From: Acidobacteriota bacterium | GTDB lineage: Bacteria > Acidobacteriota > Vicinamibacteria > Vicinamibacterales > UBA2999 | DNA: 64,000 bases | Assembly (NCBI GenBank): GCA_030697165.1 | Contig: JAUYQQ010000011.1 | Location: 186,001-250,000 of the forward strand | Direction of reading: 5' to 3' | Shown here: positions 5,933-23,757 of the stretch, one piece after another | Numbering within the stretch: the stretch's first letter is position 1 | Layout of the letters: each line of letters begins with the position of its first letter | Translations under genes and position numbers: made by a program | Notes under the pieces: model-generated | What the model was told of the DNA's origin: nothing | Seen by the model: the letters and a program-made list of their open reading frames with translations, nothing else | Databases searched by the model: none

Positions 5933-7105
5933 TCAGGCGGTGTCGCGGGTTTGGCGGTCGGCCTCGATGGCCCCGAGCCACTGCTCCAGGTCGGCGACGA
6001 CCGCCGCCTGGCGCCGCGCGGCCAACCGGACGCGGGCGGCTTGTTCCTCGGCGGCTTGCTGCGCCACGCGGTCCCGCGCGGCTTGCTCTTCGGCCGCGAA
6101 CCGCTCAGCTCGCTCCCGCGCGGCCTGCTGCGCTGCCCGTTCTTCAGCAGCCCGTGCTTCAGCAGCGCGCGCTTCCGCAGCGCGTTGCTCGGCAGCACGG
6201 CGTTCGGCTTCAGCGCGCTCTTCGGCAGCCATCCGCTCGGCGTGCTCGCGTTCGGCACGCTTCTCGGCCGCCATCCGCTCCTCGTGCTCCCGTTCGGCAC
6301 GCGCCTCGGCGGCGATCCGCTCAGTGTGCTCGCGTTCGGCCCGCGCCTCGGCGGCCACCCGCTCGGCGTGTTCGCGCTCGGCACGCGCTTCGGCGGCCAG
6401 CCGCTCAGCCCGCTCGCGCTCGGCGCGTTCCTCGGCGGCTCGCAGCTCGGCCCGCTCCCGCAGGTCGCGCTCGACATCCGCAAAGGCATCGGCCGGCTGC
6501 TGCTGCAAGTCAACCGCATCGATGGCACTAGCAGCGATCATCGGCGGCACCACCGGCGGCCCGCCTCCGCTCGCGCCGTAGCGGACTTCGTCCGCAGAGG
6601 CGGACGACGTTTCTCCCAGCTGCCTAAGCAGGGTGTCGAAGTCGAAGAGGTCTTCCACCTTCACAGGCGATGGCGGGGCCAGGACCGGCGCCGGGGCAAC
6701 CACCTGGGAGAGGCGTTCAACGGAGTCTTCGAGGTCCGGGTCGAACTGCGCCAGCTGGAGGGCGCGCTGATAGTGCGCCAGGGCTTGCGCCATGTCGCCG
6801 CGCTGTTGGTGGATTTCAGCCAGGCCACGGATGGCCGGCAAGTTGGTGGGCGCCGCCTGCACGACGGTGGTCAGCTCGACCGCGGCCTCGTCCAACCGCC
6901 CCACTTCGAGCAGGGCCCGGCCCAGCGTGACCCGCGCCGACAGGTAGCCCGGGTGATGCGCCAGGCCGGCGCGGCAGATGTCCACGGCCTCGGCAGCGTC
7001 GCCGGCCCGGCGACACTCCTCCGCCAGTTGCGCAAAAGTAATCGACGCCGGGTCCGCTTGGACCCGGCGTCGCAGTTCGAGGACCCGCGGGCTATCGGCA
7101 GCCAC
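5933..7105 (-). CDS. TPR protein with long Ala/Glu/Arg coiled coil
   Basis: Not assigned to a named family. Residues about 20-125 form TPR-like helices (AEAVDICRAGLAHHPGYLSARVTLGRALLE and onward). A Pro/Ala linker and an acidic patch (VEDLFDFDTLL, about 150-160) follow. Residues about 215-365 are an uninterrupted Ala/Glu/Arg-rich coiled coil containing five near-identical 14-residue units of the type AERLAAEARAEREH (about 233-302, DNA about 6200-6410). There is no signal peptide or membrane segment, so it is probably a cytosolic scaffold. It lies 9 nt after the PKD lipoprotein and appears to be the last gene of the pilus cluster. A role in pilus assembly is inferred from position only. Confidence 0.7.
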   Translation of the reverse strand: MAADSPRVLELRRRVQADPASITFAQLAEECRRAGDAAEAVDICRAGLAHHPGYLSARVTLGRALLEVGRLDEAAVELTTVVQAAPTNLPAIRGLAEIHQQRGDMAQALAHYQRALQLAQFDPDLEDSVERLSQVVAPAPVLAPPSPVKVEDLFDFDTLLRQLGETSSASADEVRYGASGGGPPVVPPMIAASAIDAVDLQQQPADAFADVERDLRERAELRAAEERAERERAERLAAEARAEREHAERVAAEARAEREHTERIAAEARAEREHEERMAAEKRAEREHAERMAAEERAEAERRAAEQRAAEARAAEARAAEERAAQQAARERAERFAAEEQAARDRVAQQAAEEQAARVRLAARRQAAVVADLEQWLGAIEADRQTRDTA

Positions 7106-7114
7106 TCAGTCAGT

Positions 7115-8390
7115 TTACGTGATCGTCACGCTGACTGTCGTGGTCGCCGTGCGGCCCAGTGAATCTTTGATCGTCAGCCTGACGACGTAGGTGCCGGCGC
7201 GAGTAAAGCGATGCCGGTTGATGGGGCCGGGTTGCAGTTCCTCAGAGCTGCCATCACCCCAGTTGAATTTGTATTCCACAATGGGATTCGTGCTGGTGCT
7301 GGCACTGGCGTCGAAGTTGATCTCGGTCGCTGTGGTCAGCGGCGCTGTCGGTGAGAACACGAGTGCAGCTGATATGCCGGCACCGGCCGCGGTGACCGAC
7401 AGCGACTGCGTCGCCTGCCCAATCGAACCGGCATCGTCGGTTACGGTCAGCACGATACTGTAAGTGCCGACGGTCGAGAACGAGCGCGCCGTGGTCACGC
7501 CACTGGCGGTACGGCCGTCGCCGAAGTTCCAACCGTAGCTGACAATCCGTCTCGGCAACGTCGCGCGCGACTGCTCGGCGTTGAAAAAGACGTCCTGGTT
7601 GACGCCGACCGGGGTGGGCGACATCAGGAAACTCGCGACCGGTGGCGTTGACGCCGCCACCGTGACCGTCCGCACCGCCGTGTTCTGCGCACCACGGCTG
7701 TCGGTGACCGTCAGGCTGACCTGCAGAGCGCCCACGGTCCGGTACTCGTGGCTCGTGACCATGCCCGAGCCCGACGTGCCGTCGCCGAAGTTCCACGCAT
7801 AGTTGCAGGCAGTGAGGCACGCGGTGCCGTTGTTGGTGGTCGTCGAGGCATCGAAGGCGGCGGTTGAGAACGCCTGCGGCGACGCCGGCGTCACCGTGAA
7901 TGCAGCAACCAGGCCCGGGTTGGTCGGCAGAATCACGCCCTGGGGCACCAACTGAATATCGACCCCGCGGGCCAGCTCGTTCAGGAAGTCACCGGAGTCG
8001 ATTGGCGTGACGGCAATCGTCACGGTCTGCGCCACCTGCCCGCCGGCAATGGGAGACGCGGGGGGCGAGGTATAGCGCAGTGTCCCCCCCCGTGACCGGC
8101 GATTTGGTACTCAGGGTGCCAAAGTCCTGGACCACGCCCCCCACAATGATCGCCGCGCGCAGCGGCCGGCCCGTGATCGGCTGGCCGTTGGCGTCACGGC
8201 CCGTGATCTCGATGGTGGCGCTACTCACGCCGTCCTGGATCAGCGACGTGGTATTCGACGTGAGCATGATTGAATAGCCGAGTGTTGACGGCCCGGCCAG
8301 CGCCGGGATCTCCACCTTGTTGGTGCAGCCGGCGAGGCCAGCCACCAGGAGGATGCCCGCTAAAGTCTTGATTGAAGTTGGCATGATCAC
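7115..8390 (-). pseudogene. PKD-domain lipoprotein interrupted by frameshift in C8/G8 run
   Basis: Two overlapping reading frames read as one protein if one base is removed from the run of eight C at 8084-8091. The upstream frame (8390 to about 8090) encodes a signal peptide with a clean lipobox (LAGC) and a small Ig-like domain (SSATIEITGRDANGQPITG). With seven bases it continues SPVTGG-TLRYTSPPASPIAGG into the downstream frame, which encodes three PKD domains marked WNFGDGTSG, WNFGDGRTAS and FNWGDGSSEE. The restored product is about 430 residues: an outer-membrane or surface lipoprotein with adhesive-type Ig/PKD domains. As sequenced it would end soon after the run. An assembly error, phase variation or true decay are all possible. 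It sits just downstream of pilQ and the other lipoprotein. Confidence 0.75.
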
Positions 8391-8401
8391 ATTACCCGCT
8401 G

Positions 8402-9040
8402 CTATGAGTCGCCGAAGTCGCCAAACTGCACATCGATCGTGCCGCTGACTGAGACAGCATTGCCGGCCTGATCCTGTCCGTAGAACGTGACCTCGGCGAT
8501 GGTTGACAGGAAGATGAGGCCACGACCACCGACCAGGGTGACCAGCGGCCGCTCGAGCTTGGCCTGGTGGCGGACCAGGTCGAAATTCACCGTGACCGAC
8601 GTGCCGGGCACAATCGTTGCCGTGGTGCCGCCATCGAAGCCGTAGGGCACGTCCACGCCTTCGACGTTGCGGCCGTCGGTTCGGCGATAGCGCACCCGGT
8701 AGCGATTGAGTGTGACGGAGTTGAGCGCGGTCGGCGCGGTGGTGCTGAGGGCGTTCTTCATCTCGGCGCGAATGGTCGCCAGCCCGATGTCGTTGAAGAC
8801 CGTCGGTTGCTGCACCGTGACGCCACCGACCGACACGTCGACCAGCGTCTGGACGTCCGACAGCAGGCTCGAGGTACCGGAGCCAGTGCCGCCGCCGGCC
8901 TGCGCCGCCACGCGCTCCATGATCAGGAAGGCGGGGCCGCTTCCCGTTTGCGCCAGGTCAGCGCACGCGGTGAACGACAGGCCGCACAGGGCGGCGGCCA
9001 GCAGGCCTTTGATGTTGCGAATCGAGTTCGGTGTACTCAT
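8402..9040 (-). CDS. Putative secreted lipoprotein in pilus cluster, function unknown
   Basis: 212 residues, not recognised. The N-terminus has a signal peptide (KGLLAAALCGLSFTAC) with a slightly non-canonical lipobox, FTAC; Cys26 would be lipidated. The mature part is Gly/Ser-rich at first, then beta-rich (VDVSVGGVTVQQPTVF, SVTVNFDLVRHQAKLERPLV) and ends with a strand-rich stretch (SGTIDVQFGDFGDS), which suggests a small beta-sandwich. ATG at 9040 is 5 nt after the pilQ stop, so translation is probably coupled. It precedes the PKD lipoprotein. Context suggests an exported partner of the pilus secretin, which is an inference. Confidence 0.7.
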   Translation of the reverse strand: MSTPNSIRNIKGLLAAALCGLSFTACADLAQTGSGPAFLIMERVAAQAGGGTGSGTSSLLSDVQTLVDVSVGGVTVQQPTVFNDIGLATIRAEMKNALSTTAPTALNSVTLNRYRVRYRRTDGRNVEGVDVPYGFDGGTTATIVPGTSVTVNFDLVRHQAKLERPLVTLVGGRGLIFLSTIAEVTFYGQDQAGNAVSVSGTIDVQFGDFGDS

Positions 9041-9045
9041 ATGCC

Positions 9046-11427
9046 CTACTTCAGGATCTTGGGAGTAATGAAGATCAAGAGTTCGTCCTGGCTCTCGCGG
9101 TTGGTGTCGTTTTTGAACAGCCAGCCGATTAGCGGGATGCGATGCAGCCCCGGCGTGCGGTCCTGGGTCGACGATTCCGCGCTGTTGTAAATGCCGCCGA
9201 TGACGGTCGTATCGCCGTCGGCCACGAGCACGGTGGTCTGCGCCGCCTGCTTGTCGATCGACGGGGTCGGCTGCGCCGCGGAGGTCTGCGAGTAGTTGGG
9301 CGCCGACTTGTCGACGATGATGCGCATGATCACGGTGCCAGAGGCGGTGATCTGCGGCGTCACGCGCAGCACCAACGCCGCGGGGATGAAGGTCACCGTC
9401 ACGGTGTTGTTCGAGATGGTCTGCACGGGAATCTGCGAACCCTGCGTGATCTCGGCCTCGATGTTGTTCTGGGTTGACACCCGCGGGCTCGAGACAATGC
9501 GCACCTTGCCCGAGTTTTCGAGGGCGCGCAGCTGAACATCAAGGTTCAGGGCGCCGTTGATCGAGCCAAGCGCCAGGCCGAGCGCGCTCGGCGCGGCGAG
9601 GTTGACCCCGCCGGTGGTGGCGGCCGCCCCAGCGGTCGCCGGGAAGACCAGGCCGGTGGTGGTGCCCACCGACGGGTCGATGCGGCCGTTCATGCCCCAC
9701 TGGATGCCGAGCTCCTTCGCGAAATTGCGATTGAGCGTGATGATGCGGGCTTCGATCTCGACCTGCGGCTGGGGCGTGTCGAGGGCGGCAATCAGCTCGC
9801 TGGCGGCCTGCAGTCGATCCGCGAGGTCGCGGATGATCAGCGTATTGGTGCGCGTGTCAATCTGGACATCGCCACGCGGCGAGAGCGCGCTCTTGGTGAT
9901 GATCGGCACCAGGTCGCGGGCCTGCGCATAGCTCAGCGGCCGGGTGATGACGCGCAGTTCGCCGGCCAGGGCGCTGGCGTCGGCCAGCTTCTTACGGTCT
10001 TCGGTCTCCTGCGCCAGCACGCTGACCGGCACGATACGGACGATGGTGCCGTCCACGCTGTAGCCCAGCTTGTTGGCGCGCAGGATGATGTCGAGCGCCT
10101 GGTCCCAGGGGACATCGCGCAACGACACGTCAACCGTGCCCTGGATGGACGGGTCGATCACAATGTTCAGGCCGCTGATCTCGGCGAAGGTGCGCAGCAC
10201 GGCGCGCAGATCGGCGCTCTGGAAATCCAGGGTGATCGGGTCACCCGTGAACGTGCGTTGGCCCTGTGCGTTGGTCGCGGTCTGCAGCGTGGCGAGCCCC
10301 GACGGCGCCTGCCCGCCTTCGCGGCCGATGGCCGCAACGGCAGGCTCCCGCCGAAGCTCGTTGACGACATTCGGAGCGGAGGCGGACGCGGCCACTTCCG
10401 CCACTTCGACCGGCGCAGGAGGAGGCGGCGCCACCGGCCCGCCTTCGCGGCCGGAGGCCGTTACGGCGAGGTCTCGCCGCAGCTCGCCAGCCGACTCGCG
10501 AGCGGAGGCGGATGGGACCAAGGTCTCGACGGCGCGATTGAAGAGGACACGAATCTCCTCTCCCACTGTTTCAACCGTGTACGGAAGCTTGCGTGCCAGG
10601 TCGATCACGACGCGCGTGACGAGCGGCTCGCGGCTGTTGGTCGCGACGCGCACGCGCTCGATCCCGGCCGCGTTGACGGCGGTGACCGGGGCGGCCCGGC
10701 CGGCGGTGACGCCCTGGAAGTCGAGGAACACGCGCGCCGGCAGGTCGCGGGTTTCATCCACCGACGACGCCACCAGCGGACCGTTGCCAGCGAGCGTGAT
10801 CGCAAAACCGTTGGACACCTCTGAGGCCGTGATCGACCTCAGTGCCGTCGCCATGGCGCGAACCGCCGTGGTCTTCGCGACGGCGGGCTCGCCCGCCGTC
10901 TCGCCCGCCGGAGCCTTGGCGGAGGTGGGAGCCTTGGCGAAGGTGGGCGCCTTGGGCGCAATCGACGGCACCGTGGTCACGGCAGCTCCACCTGGCGCGG
11001 CCCCTCGATCGACTTCCACGAGGATGGTGTTCCGCGAACTGCGGACGCGGTGCTTGGCAGCCCGTTCGAGGCGCACGCGAACGCGCGCCACCGGCGCGCC
11101 GTCGGGGGCGCTGGCCCCCTCAATCGCGACACCGGCCACTGGCGCCAGCATCGCCGCGATCGGCATCGCAGCAAGGCTGCCGGCCGTCGTGTTCCTCAGG
11201 TCAACCAGGACCGTTAACGGGTCCGGCTGGCTGGTGAGGTACGCCACCGGCTCGCTGGCTTCGATCAGCACGGTGCTGAGCGCGCCATCGAGCCGCGACG
11301 AGATTGAACGTAGGGCTGGGGTGTCGGCGCCGGGGCCCCTCGGCACCGGACCGCTGGCAGTCAACGTGACCGCCAGGGCTGCCGCCAGGGGCGCAGCCAA
11401 TACCAGTCGAGGAATGCGACCGTGCAT
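9046..11427 (-). CDS. pilQ: Type IV pilus secretin PilQ
   Basis: Outer-membrane secretin through which the type IV pilus passes. It has 793 residues from the ATG at 11427, which overlaps the pilP stop (TGATG). Seen in order: a Sec signal peptide (VLAAPLAAALAVTLTASG), two AMIN-like domains (about 40-130 and 190-285), a low-complexity linker, an STN/N0-like segment (ITLDFQSADLRAVLRTFAEISG), an N1/KH-like domain, and the secretin domain with VEIEARIITLNRNFAKELGIQWG and the C-terminal PGLHRIPLIGWLFKNDTNRESQDELLIFITPKIL. The linkers carry repeat-derived segments (see findings). It is cotranscribed with pilMNOP. Confidence 0.95.
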   Translation of the reverse strand: MHGRIPRLVLAAPLAAALAVTLTASGPVPRGPGADTPALRSISSRLDGALSTVLIEASEPVAYLTSQPDPLTVLVDLRNTTAGSLAAMPIAAMLAPVAGVAIEGASAPDGAPVARVRVRLERAAKHRVRSSRNTILVEVDRGAAPGGAAVTTVPSIAPKAPTFAKAPTSAKAPAGETAGEPAVAKTTAVRAMATALRSITASEVSNGFAITLAGNGPLVASSVDETRDLPARVFLDFQGVTAGRAAPVTAVNAAGIERVRVATNSREPLVTRVVIDLARKLPYTVETVGEEIRVLFNRAVETLVPSASARESAGELRRDLAVTASGREGGPVAPPPPAPVEVAEVAASASAPNVVNELRREPAVAAIGREGGQAPSGLATLQTATNAQGQRTFTGDPITLDFQSADLRAVLRTFAEISGLNIVIDPSIQGTVDVSLRDVPWDQALDIILRANKLGYSVDGTIVRIVPVSVLAQETEDRKKLADASALAGELRVITRPLSYAQARDLVPIITKSALSPRGDVQIDTRTNTLIIRDLADRLQAASELIAALDTPQPQVEIEARIITLNRNFAKELGIQWGMNGRIDPSVGTTTGLVFPATAGAAATTGGVNLAAPSALGLALGSINGALNLDVQLRALENSGKVRIVSSPRVSTQNNIEAEITQGSQIPVQTISNNTVTVTFIPAALVLRVTPQITASGTVIMRIIVDKSAPNYSQTSAAQPTPSIDKQAAQTTVLVADGDTTVIGGIYNSAESSTQDRTPGLHRIPLIGWLFKNDTNRESQDELLIFITPKILK

Positions 11428-11924
11428 CACTTGACCTCTTCTCCACCGCGCAGGAACTTGCGCACTTCGCGCTGCTTCTCGAGCGACAGCGGATCGTTGA
11501 CTTCCTGAAGAATGACTACTGCTTGCGCCGTGATCGAACGAATGACGCCGTCGAACAACTTGTCGCCGGCGCGGACCGTGAAGACCTTGCCGTCGGGACC
11601 CGCCACCATGGCCAGAAACGCGCCGCGGCTCAGCATGATCCCCCTGACGACAATCGCGTTGGTCTCGAGCCCGGGCACGCCATCTGGGCGCTTGGCCGAC
11701 GCGTTGTTGCCGCGCACCGCATCCGTACCGCGGTTGACCAGATCCACGAACGGATCGCGCCGTCCGTCTGGGCTGTATTGGAAGTTGGGCGGCGGGGCCG
11801 GCAACGGCGGACCCGGAGCGGCGGCAGGAGCGGCCGGCGCTGGCGCCTTCGGCTTCTGCGCGTGCAGCGTCTCGGCCGTGAGGCCGGCCAGCAAGACGAC
11901 GACGAGAACGACGGGCGTGTGCAT
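11427..11924 (-). CDS. pilP: Type IV pilus assembly protein PilP
   Basis: Periplasmic connector between the inner-membrane PilN/PilO and the secretin PilQ. It has 165 residues: a signal peptide (TPVVLVVVLLAGLTAETLHA), a Pro/Ala-rich linker, then a PilP beta domain (YSPDGRRDPFVDLV, then NAIVVRGIMLSRGAFLAMVAGPDGKVFTVRAGDKLFDGVI). Unlike the classical PilP there is no lipobox Cys, so it is probably not lipidated. The ATG at 11924 overlaps the pilO stop and its own stop overlaps the pilQ start. Confidence 0.9.
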   Translation of the reverse strand: MHTPVVLVVVLLAGLTAETLHAQKPKAPAPAAPAAAPGPPLPAPPPNFQYSPDGRRDPFVDLVNRGTDAVRGNNASAKRPDGVPGLETNAIVVRGIMLSRGAFLAMVAGPDGKVFTVRAGDKLFDGVIRSITAQAVVILQEVNDPLSLEKQREVRKFLRGGEEVK

Positions 11925-12547
11925 CACTTCTTTGCCGGCGCCTTCTTCGGCGCCTTCTTGCCCTTGGCGGCAGCCGGCGCCGCGGGCTGTTCGACCAGCA
12001 CGAAGGTCGTCGCCGTACACGCAATCGTCATCGTCGACGCCGAATTGGCGCCTTCGCGCTGGGCGAGGGTCAGGCCGCCGATGTTGATAATGCGCGGGAA
12101 CTTGCTGACGCGATCGAGGAACAGGCCGAGGTTGTGATACGTGCCTTCGAGCTGGAGGCTGATCGGCCACTCGGCGTGCATTTCCTTCATGCTGATGGCC
12201 TGGGGGCGGAAGCCGCGAATGACGAGGTTCGATTGCACCGCGAGCGTCTGCACCCGCCGCAGCAAGTCGCCGGCGTCGCGCTCGTCGGGCAGGATCGGCT
12301 TGAGGCTGTCGAGCCGTGCCTCGAGTTCGGTGACCTGGGCGCGGAACTCGGGCAACTGCCTGGCCGTGGCTTGGCCCGTGCTGATGCGGGCGCGAATCGC
12401 GCTCAGCTCGACCGACTGGGTCGCGATCGCCGCCTGGCGCGGCATCTCGTAGTAGTAGTAAAAGGCGCCGGCGGCCGCGAGCGAGACCGCCACGAAGATG
12501 CCCAGCTGCCCCTGCCACGGGATCTTGCCGAATGAGAGGCTAGCCAC
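11924..12547 (-). CDS. pilO: Type IV pilus assembly protein PilO
   Basis: Inner-membrane bitopic protein that pairs with PilN in the alignment subcomplex. It has 207 residues. A short N-terminus and one membrane helix (LGIFVAVSLAAAGAFYYYYEM, about 16-36) are followed by a periplasmic coiled coil (QSVELSAIRARISTGQATARQLPEFRAQ) and a ferredoxin-like domain. The C-terminus ends in a Lys/Ala-rich tail (AAAKGKKAPKKAPAKK), an odd extension for the family. It overlaps pilN upstream by 8 nt and pilP downstream. Confidence 0.93.
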   Translation of the reverse strand: MASLSFGKIPWQGQLGIFVAVSLAAAGAFYYYYEMPRQAAIATQSVELSAIRARISTGQATARQLPEFRAQVTELEARLDSLKPILPDERDAGDLLRRVQTLAVQSNLVIRGFRPQAISMKEMHAEWPISLQLEGTYHNLGLFLDRVSKFPRIINIGGLTLAQREGANSASTMTIACTATTFVLVEQPAAPAAAKGKKAPKKAPAKK

Positions 12548-13160
12548 GCTTGCCTCCTTTTTTACCGGTCGTGAGCGGTGGCGGTGGATCGATGCCCGCC
12601 ATCTGGAAGGTGCCGCGGATCGTGAACTGAATCAGGTCGGGGGTCGCACCCGAACCGCTGACGACCACGCTGTCGACGATTTCCACCGGTCGCCGGAAGT
12701 AGCGCGAGGCCTCGAGGTTGCCGACGAAGTCCGACAGCGACGTCAACGTGAGACAGCGGCCCTGGATGGTCAGGTTGTAACCTTCCTGGCGCACGCTGGT
12801 CAGCCACGTCATGTCGGGCAAGGCCCGGCTGACCTGGTCGATCATGTGCACGGGGGCGTTCTGGCCCTTGCGCAGTTCGTCGATCAGGGCCACCCGCTGC
12901 TCGAGTTGCACCTTGCGCGCCTCGAACTCCTGCACCTGTTTCAGGATCTCGGCCAGGCGCTGCTCTTCCCGCTTGGCCGCCTCGACCTCGCGCACCACTT
13001 GCGCTTCCTGCTGCCCGATCGCCCAGTAGCGCCAGCCGACGCCGACGAGCGTGAGCACGACCAGCAGGCTGCCGATCACGGTGATCTTCTGCCCGGCCTG
13101 GAACCCCTTGCTGACCGCGACGACGGTGCGGCGTTCCGACAGGAGGTTAATCCGAATCAT
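12540..13160 (-). CDS. pilN: Type IV pilus assembly protein PilN
   Basis: Inner-membrane bitopic protein whose cytoplasmic N-terminus binds PilM and whose periplasmic part pairs with PilO. It has 206 residues. The N-terminal INLLSE is the PilM-binding motif, followed by a membrane helix (KITVIGSLLVVLTLVGVGWRYWAIG, about 25-49), a coiled coil, and a periplasmic ferredoxin-like domain. The start overlaps the pilM stop by 4 nt (ATGA type). The last residues are Gly/Lys-rich (TTGKKGGKRG). Confidence 0.94.
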   Translation of the reverse strand: MIRINLLSERRTVVAVSKGFQAGQKITVIGSLLVVLTLVGVGWRYWAIGQQEAQVVREVEAAKREEQRLAEILKQVQEFEARKVQLEQRVALIDELRKGQNAPVHMIDQVSRALPDMTWLTSVRQEGYNLTIQGRCLTLTSLSDFVGNLEASRYFRRPVEIVDSVVVSGSGATPDLIQFTIRGTFQMAGIDPPPPLTTGKKGGKRG

Positions 13161-14221
13161 CGGTCACCCACCTTGCGCAACGCGAGGCCCATCGCCACCG
13201 CCGCCACCGGCGCCAGGTCCTCGGCGCTCTCGATGCCGAGTTTCTTGGGGTCGCAGGCGACCTGGCGGAACGGATCGAACCGCTCCACTTCGGTGTCGAA
13301 CCGCTCGCGCAGCGACTCGGCAAAGCCCTCGACCCGCGACGCGCCGCCGCACAGCATGATGCGGTCAATGCGCTCGCTGGCCGCGGTGGCCTTGAAAAAG
13401 TCGAACGTCTTCTCGACCTCGAGCAGCACGTTGTCGGTCATGGCCCGCAGCACGGCGCGCGCGTCCTCGAAGGTGGCGCCATCGACGTCCTGCCCCTTCT
13501 TCAGCATCTCGGCCGCTTCGTACGGCAGGTTCAGTTCCTTCTGCACCGCCTCGGTGAACGCATTGCCACCCATCGAGACGTCGCGGGTGAACACCGACTG
13601 CGCGCCGGTCAGGATGTTGATGTTGATGGCGCTGGCGCCGGCATTGAGGATGGCCACGACCGCGGTCGGCTCGAAGCCGTAGTTGGCCTCGAAGGCGTTC
13701 TGCAGCGCGAACACGTCGACATCGACAATCACCGGCGTCTTGCCCGCCTGGGCGATCACGTTGGTGTAGTCGGCGATCTTGTCCTTCTTGGCGGCGACCA
13801 GCAGCACTTCCATGCTGCCCTGGCTGTCCTGGCCGGTGCCCGGGTCGAGGATCTCGTAGTCGAGGTTCACGTCCTGGATGTCGAACGGGATGTACTGCTC
13901 GGCTTCCCAGTAGATGGACTCGGACAGTTCCGACTCGGTCATCGCCGGCAGCGTGATCTTCTTGACGATCACCGAGTTGCCCGACAGCGACGCGACGATG
14001 TCCTTGGCCTTGAAGCGCTTGTTGGCGAACAGGCGCCGCACGGCATCGGCGACCGCGCCGCCATCGATGATGGCGCCGTCGACAATGCTGTCGGGCGGGA
14101 CCGATTCGACCCCGATGGCCGAGACGCGGTAGCCCTTGCCCGACGCTTTAAGTTCGATCGCCTTGACGGAACTCGACCCGATGTCGAGGCCTACCAGGCT
14201 TTTTGGTCGACGAAACAGCAC
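13157..14221 (-). CDS. pilM: Type IV pilus assembly ATPase-like protein PilM
   Basis: Cytosolic actin/FtsA-fold protein that forms the inner ring of the pilus alignment complex through PilN. It has 354 residues. Seen: the phosphate-1 motif VGLDIGSSSVKAIEL near the N-terminus, VAILNAGASAININI (phosphate-2) and LCGGASRVEGF (adenosine motif). It starts at GTG 14221, with GGAGA about 10 nt before. It is the first gene of pilMNOPQ. No clear -10/-35 pair was found on the minus strand upstream, though an AT-rich palindrome lies about 130-165 nt away. Confidence 0.95.
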   Translation of the reverse strand: MLFRRPKSLVGLDIGSSSVKAIELKASGKGYRVSAIGVESVPPDSIVDGAIIDGGAVADAVRRLFANKRFKAKDIVASLSGNSVIVKKITLPAMTESELSESIYWEAEQYIPFDIQDVNLDYEILDPGTGQDSQGSMEVLLVAAKKDKIADYTNVIAQAGKTPVIVDVDVFALQNAFEANYGFEPTAVVAILNAGASAININILTGAQSVFTRDVSMGGNAFTEAVQKELNLPYEAAEMLKKGQDVDGATFEDARAVLRAMTDNVLLEVEKTFDFFKATAASERIDRIMLCGGASRVEGFAESLRERFDTEVERFDPFRQVACDPKKLGIESAEDLAPVAAVAMGLALRKVGDR

Positions 14222-21911: not shown

Positions 21912-23757
21912 CCGCCTCCCCCGCTCCATTCGGACCGCCCTGCTGCTGGCGGCCGTCGTGACGATTGCGGCCTGCGCCAGTTCCGGCGGCTCCTTCACAG
22001 TCGCACGCGACGCCGAGACCTCCCAGAACTACGATCTCGCCGTGGCCGAGTACACCAAGCTCGTGCGCACCAGGCCCGATGACCGAAACGCCCGCGCCGG
22101 ACTCGAGCGGGCCAAGCTGCGCGCCTCGCAGGACCACTTTGCCAGGGCTCGCCGCCTCGCCGCTACCGGCAGCCTCGAAGAGGCCCTGGTCGAATACCAG
22201 CTCGCCTCGGAACTCAATCCCGGCAACGGCGACATCAACGTGGAGCTGCAGGCCACGCGCTCGCAGTTGCGCGCCAAGGTCGCCGTCCGTGAAGACGGCA
22301 AGACCCGCCTGCAATCGCTGATCGAACAAAGCCTGGAGTCGCCGCTGCCCGGCGCCACCCTGCCGACCGGCGTCAAGCTGCCCGACAGCCTGGTGTTCCG
22401 CGATGCCGGCTCCAGGGATGTCTATGCGGCGATCGGCAAGTTCACCAACCTGAGCGTCCTGTTCGACCCGACGTTCCGCGACCAGCCGGTGTCGATCGAC
22501 CTGCGCGGCGTCTCGCTCGAAGAGGCGCTGGCCGCGGTCTCGACGACCACGCGCAACTTCTGGCGCGCCACCTCGGCGAACACCATCACGATCGTCCCCG
22601 ACAACGCCGCCAAGCGGCGTGAGTATGAAGAGGAAATCGTCCGCACCTTCTACTTGAGCAACGCCGACCTCAAGGAAACCATCGACATGCTCCGCATCGT
22701 CGTCGATGCGCGCCGCCTGTCGTCGATCACGGCGACCAACGCGATCACGATCAAGGACACGCCCGAGCGCATTACCGCCGCCGGCCGGATCATCGCCGCG
22801 ATCGACAAGGCGCGGCCGGAAGTGATCATCGACGTCGAGTTGCTCGAGGTCAACCGCACGCACATGCACGAGTACGGCCTGCAGATCGCCTCGCCGGCGT
22901 CGTCGCCCACCGGCATCAACGGCCAGGTGGAGATCAATCAGCCGGGGGGGATCTCGCTGCGCGCGCTGACCAACCTGACCCAGGCCGACGTGCTGCTGAC
23001 CAACCTGCCGTCGCTCTACTATCGCCTGCTGAAGAACGACGGGGCCACGCGGATCCTGGCCAACCCGCAGTTGCGCACGTCGGAGGGCATCCCGGCGCAG
23101 GCCCGTTTCGGCGAGCGCGTGCCGGTGCCGGTCACGACGTTCGCGCCGATCGCCGCCGGCGGCGTGCAGACGCAGCCGATCACGTCCTTCAACTACGAAC
23201 CGATCGGCGTCAACATCGACATCACGCCGCGGACGCATCACGACGATGCCGTGACCCTGGCGCTGAAGGTGGAGTTGAGCAGCATTTCGGGCACCGGGTT
23301 CGGCGGCCTGCCCACGTTCGGCAGCCGCTCGATCAACACGGTGATTCGCTTGAAGGACGGCGAGACCAACATGCTCGCGGGCTTGATTCGCGATGAAGAG
23401 CGGTCGTCACTCGCCAGCATCCCCGGCCTCGGCGACATCCCGGTGATTGGGCGGCTCTTTGGCTACAACAAGAAAGAGACGCAGGAGACCGACATCATCC
23501 TGACGCTGACGCCGCGGATTGTGCGGGTGCTGAACCTGACCGCCGAGGACCTGCAGCCGTTCCGCATGGGCCGCGATGGCGGCGCACCGGTTACCGACAT
23601 TGCCCCGCTGCCCATTCCCCTGCCGCTGCCGCAGCGTCCACCGGGCGGCGACGATGCGGCTGGCACTGCCCCCTCGTTCCCGAATGCCCCGGCCGGTCCG
23701 GCGGCTCCCGTCCGGGCCCCGGGGCCCACCCCGGTCAAGCCGCCTAAGGGCCGCTAG
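21892..23757 (+). CDS. Lipid-anchored TPR secretin (type II secretion GspD-like)
   Basis: Outer-membrane secretin of the type II/III superfamily, 621 residues. The N-terminus is a lipoprotein signal with lipobox IAAC (Cys28). Residues about 40-120 form TPR-like repeats instead of a long linker. An N0/STN-like domain (LVFRDAGSRDVYAAIGKFTNLSVLFD) and an N1-like domain (RTFYLSNADLKETIDMLR...ITIKDTPERI) follow, then the secretin core VIIDVELLEVNRTHMHEYGLQ through VPVPVTTFAP to GLGDIPVIGRLFGYNKKETQETDIILTLTPRIV. A Pro/Ala-rich tail follows. It differs from PilQ in lacking AMIN domains. Lipidation is an inference from the lipobox. Confidence 0.88.
   Translation: MVHALNNRLPRSIRTALLLAAVVTIAACASSGGSFTVARDAETSQNYDLAVAEYTKLVRTRPDDRNARAGLERAKLRASQDHFARARRLAATGSLEEALVEYQLASELNPGNGDINVELQATRSQLRAKVAVREDGKTRLQSLIEQSLESPLPGATLPTGVKLPDSLVFRDAGSRDVYAAIGKFTNLSVLFDPTFRDQPVSIDLRGVSLEEALAAVSTTTRNFWRATSANTITIVPDNAAKRREYEEEIVRTFYLSNADLKETIDMLRIVVDARRLSSITATNAITIKDTPERITAAGRIIAAIDKARPEVIIDVELLEVNRTHMHEYGLQIASPASSPTGINGQVEINQPGGISLRALTNLTQADVLLTNLPSLYYRLLKNDGATRILANPQLRTSEGIPAQARFGERVPVPVTTFAPIAAGGVQTQPITSFNYEPIGVNIDITPRTHHDDAVTLALKVELSSISGTGFGGLPTFGSRSINTVIRLKDGETNMLAGLIRDEERSSLASIPGLGDIPVIGRLFGYNKKETQETDIILTLTPRIVRVLNLTAEDLQPFRMGRDGGAPVTDIAPLPIPLPLPQRPPGGDDAAGTAPSFPNAPAGPAAPVRAPGPTPVKPPKGR

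Follow-up and report, generated by a model that had tools for sequence, protein, structure and literature searches.

What does a run of eight C mean when it splits an otherwise intact lipoprotein gene in an acidobacterial genome? The question is raised by a 64,000 nt stretch of DNA (the window), which is part of a 5.39 Mb genome in 23 contigs. An initial annotation had noted that such a run can serve as an on/off switch for a surface protein, and also that it can be an assembly error. Here we compare the locus with its relatives and the run with others in the same assembly, and conclude that the gene probably carries a recent null allele; the break may instead be a consensus error, and the evidence hardly speaks for a switch.

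A lipoprotein gene of a pilus operon is broken at a run of eight C

The gene lies on the minus strand, and its N-terminal and C-terminal parts are in different frames that meet at the run. The features of the locus are as follows.

5933..7105, minus strand: downstream TPR-repeat protein, a conserved neighbour
7115..8083, minus strand: C-terminal part, in the other frame, which completes the Ig-like domain and carries three PKD domains
8084..8091: eight consecutive C on the plus strand (eight G on the coding strand), at which the two frames join
7989..8384, minus strand: N-terminal fragment with the lipoprotein signal and most of the Ig-like domain
8402..9040, minus strand: upstream neighbour, a small putative lipoprotein without family match, a conserved neighbour in relatives
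9046..11436, minus strand: pilQ, type IV pilus secretin (TIGR02515, E 4.9e-116; PF00263)
11427..14221, minus strand: pilP, pilO, pilN and pilM (PF04351, PF04350, PF05137, PF11104; TIGR01175)

The upstream frame begins with an ATG at 8384 or, alternatively, with a GTG at 8390. For about 99 codons, as far as the run, it encodes the genuine protein; beyond that it is out of frame until a stop at 7989. Codon-usage scoring likewise selects different minus-strand frames on the two sides of the run. Alignment to the intact orthologue of genome G008 puts the change at or beside the run, because the G008 protein spans both halves without interruption, and next to the junction its residues agree with the window's upstream frame ahead of the run and with the downstream frame immediately behind it. 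This is the sole C/G run longer than seven in the window; the single run of seven (22944-22950) is inside an unbroken frame. The assembly holds no second allele, and a search of the genome gave one full match. As assembled, the frame break is real, and both the break and its position are observed directly.

The protein encoded by the two halves is largely the one first described. A lipobox, L-A-G-C, can be read directly from the signal peptide, and the three PKD stretches downstream of the run match PF18911 (E 4.7e-45), in agreement with the lipoprotein signal and three PKD domains of the initial annotation. The Ig-like domain it also named corresponds to a weak Invasin_D3 match, the only one upstream of the run, which at E 2.7e-4 falls under the Pfam cut-off. 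Orthologues are 419-424 aa long, close to the roughly 430 residues proposed for the restored protein. NCBIfam had no match to the PKD protein that passed its cut-off, nor any to the protein of 8402-9040. The predicted structure of the intact Lake Baikal orthologue, computed from a three-row alignment, has a mean pLDDT of 45 and was set aside.

On the minus strand the genes read pilM, pilN, pilO, pilP, pilQ, the small protein, the PKD lipoprotein gene and the TPR gene. At all six same-genus loci (L004-L009), and in many members of the order, pilQ is likewise followed by the small protein, the PKD gene and the TPR gene. The broken gene shows every mark of a PKD lipoprotein of the pilus operon, namely the lipobox, the three PKD domains and its place at the pilQ end. 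Its product is presumably exposed at the cell surface and at work in the service of the pilus. Positions 5933-14221 of the window present a conserved order of eight genes in which pilMNOPQ are joined by the small family-less lipoprotein, the Ig/PKD lipoprotein and the TPR protein. The latter three stay next to pilQ throughout the order and seem to be uncharacterised accessory proteins of the pilus.

The gene is intact and lacks the run in relatives

The C-terminal half as query matched 33 of 40 genomes, and the intact G008 orthologue matched 39 of 43 genomes of the family, both counts taking in the genome of the window itself and PKD genes at other places. Among the loci found, the named relative that comes closest is an Acidobacterium assembly from Lake Baikal (L134, 78% identity). 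At 29 loci of relatives (L004-L032), both halves of the protein were matched in 26, and in all 26 they share a single frame. Two flagged in-frame stops, in L029 and L031, proved to be natural protein ends. The relatives thus offer none of the many disabling mutations that were to identify a true pseudogene. The claim that the run at 8084-8091 breaks an otherwise intact gene is supported.

No further stop or frameshift was found in the PKD lipoprotein gene. By a simple Nei-Gojobori count, which is rough because dS is 0.6-1.5, dN/dS against L004 and L005 was 0.52 and 0.22 upstream of the run, 0.23 and 0.09 just past it, and 0.12 and 0.29 for the PKD part; with L006 added to the comparison, every part stayed below 1 (0.09-0.78). 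Relative to L004 and L005, both halves show what these ratios indicate to be purifying selection. A single lesion was found, and both halves appear to be under selection, so the break is either very recent or not real. A broken frame among intact orthologues is what a recent pseudogene should present; neither relaxed selection nor further lesions accompany it here, as expected if the break is very recent.

Divergence within 7115-8384 is mosaic. In comparisons with L004 and L005, the N-terminal half is nearer to G008 (67% versus 52%) and the PKD half nearer to G003 (80% versus 61%), a pattern that suggests recombination within the gene.

The same loci bear on the idea of phase variation, in which the run would be a contingency tract that switches a pilus-linked lipoprotein on and off, like the poly-G tract of neisserial pilC. 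A lipoprotein in a pilus operon is a suitable kind of gene, and the homopolymer lies inside an open frame that its length sets. However, the tract is not kept, at constant or varying length, in the other species compared: no C/G run of seven or more occurs at any of the 29 loci, and within about 170 nt at the site the longest one measures 2-6 bases in all 26 orthologues. Eight bases is also short for a hypermutable G/C tract, which counts against a switch. Genome-wide, runs of eight occur at 2.0 per Mb, within the 0.5-5.7 per Mb of 10 relatives. With the tract not conserved and long runs not enriched, a selected switch is without support, and we consider phase variation unlikely. A reversible poly-G switch newly arisen in this species, a free-living acidobacterium, and convergent with that of neisserial pilC is similarly improbable. 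If it were a switch, poly-G phase variation of pilus functions would extend to free-living Acidobacteria. A literature search, judged by titles and the beginnings of abstracts, found no report of Acidobacteria that vary phase through homopolymers; searches for a lipoprotein with PKD domains linked to their type IV pili, for homopolymeric tracts in environmental bacteria and for poly-G with MEGAHIT also returned nothing.

A full-length protein could in principle be made from the split gene by programmed ribosomal frameshifting or transcriptional slippage at the G run, which sits exactly at the frame change. Such a site should be conserved, and conserved motifs are given as marks of recoding by Antonov et al. 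(2013; PMC3711429). In contrast, neither a frame change nor a slippery motif is conserved here: the 26 relatives encode the protein in a single open frame and have no run of this kind. Recoding is therefore very improbable.

Homopolymer runs elsewhere and the type of assembly

A consensus or assembly error would mean that the gene of the organism is intact and that the length of the run was miscalled or a minority variant kept. The character of the assembly matters here. A comparison of 40 of the 46 contig ends gave seven exact pairwise overlaps, with lengths of 141 bases in four cases, 133 in two and 123 in one; the largest default k of MEGAHIT is 141. One contig breaks in what we take to be 23S rRNA, which forms part of the case for short reads. 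Contig C19 of the window's genome (G000) starts with 55 G (L082 1-55) followed by a short tandem repeat, and the end of contig C7 (L242) has C/G runs of 12 and 8; both are likely read artefacts at contig ends. The 55 G are as would be given by the poly-G tails of two-colour Illumina chemistry, which are described in PMC9712116. Together with the overlaps, they make this look like a short-read de Bruijn assembly, and the homopolymer error of long reads is for that reason not obviously applicable. In short-read assemblies a run of eight bases is spanned within single reads.

C/G runs across the genome, scored with the 55-G contig start left out, mostly leave the frame unbroken where it can be called. 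The 82 runs of exactly seven comprise 38 in a clear coding frame, two apparently shifted, two at a strand change and 40 ambiguous. Eleven runs of eight include five in frame, one shifted (the PKD lipoprotein gene) and five ambiguous; one of four runs of nine is in frame and three are ambiguous, as are two runs of ten and one of 12. Clear unbroken coding runs of seven to nine therefore number 44 (38, five and one, respectively). In six same-genus genomes, 57 of 58 runs of eight were scored, one at a contig edge being omitted, with 24 in frame, one shifted and 32 ambiguous. Broken runs of eight make up one of six clear coding cases here versus one of 25 in those genomes, too few to separate from chance. 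Runs of eight scored as shifted in relatives are in L335 (G003) and L132 (G020). Broken runs are rare both here and in the same-genus genomes, and the numbers are too small to call an excess here.

Two conserved genes in this genome are broken at C/G runs of seven to nine. The second, conserved in the genus, lies outside the window on contig C16, where a run of seven interrupts it (121371-121379; L283 702-708). Its query half matched all nine genomes of the genus, the own genome included, and both halves were found in one frame in six of eight relatives; in L310 and L314, both near contig ends, only the first half was found. A Pfam search gave no match for this gene and hence no sign that it encodes a surface antigen. 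The other apparently shifted run of seven (L267) was rejected as an ordinary gene boundary.

The same kind of break in the two genes could have a shared technical cause. Assembly error, as first proposed, is weakened by the short-read marks and by the 44 coding runs that stay in frame, and keeps some force from the C16 gene, from the lone lesion in a gene under selection and from the literature expectation for singleton frameshifts (PMC3711429). We regard it as possible, though less probable than a genuine mutation. If it were an error, the locus would be a warning not to mistake homopolymer breaks in an assembly for biology.

A probable recent frameshift by slipped-strand replication

The reading we prefer, with moderate confidence, is that the lipoprotein gene of the pilus operon carries a recent slipped-strand null allele in the sequenced population. 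The gene would encode a lipoprotein with an Ig-like and three PKD domains and form part of this acidobacterial group's operon for type IV pili. A G/C run of eight, there by chance, would have slipped during replication and so produced one recent frameshift. Translation would then halt after about 131 residues, inside or just past the Ig-like domain, and the PKD domains would be lost. The outcome would be a fresh null allele, presumably neither built nor kept as a switch, that another slip could revert. We infer that the reads carry the frameshift, that slippage was its cause and that the truncated product is inactive. If the null allele is real, it shows that a lipoprotein linked to the pilus and kept throughout the order can disappear, at least temporarily. 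On present evidence the broken lipoprotein gene is an ordinary one, and the initial interpretation as a whole is partly supported.

Comparison with known systems

Phase variation of pilC in Neisseria gonorrhoeae was reportedly described by Jonsson and colleagues in 1991. The pilC tract lies in the signal sequence. This nearest known switch (neisserial pilC; PMC7593972) resembles our locus in that the frame of a pilus-associated surface protein is broken by a frameshift. Here, in contrast, no length variation is seen, the run is shorter and not conserved in relatives, and it lies about 99 codons into the gene.

A closer likeness is to the singleton frameshifted genes and recent pseudogenes of Antonov et al. 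(2013; PMC3711429), which share with this gene one frameshift, intact homologues and restriction to a single genome. In that paper, phase variation is marked by repeats near the site together with a known phase-variable function, and frameshifts confined to one genome are treated either as indels of recent origin or as errors of sequencing. With the genomes at hand in 2013, lone frameshifts validated by homology were expected to be mostly sequencing errors rather than genuine indels; this expectation and the conserved C16 gene interrupted at a run of seven speak against a recent mutation. The present case differs from those singletons in that, with no further decay yet, the frameshift affects a conserved gene of a pilus operon in an assembly that resembles a short-read one.
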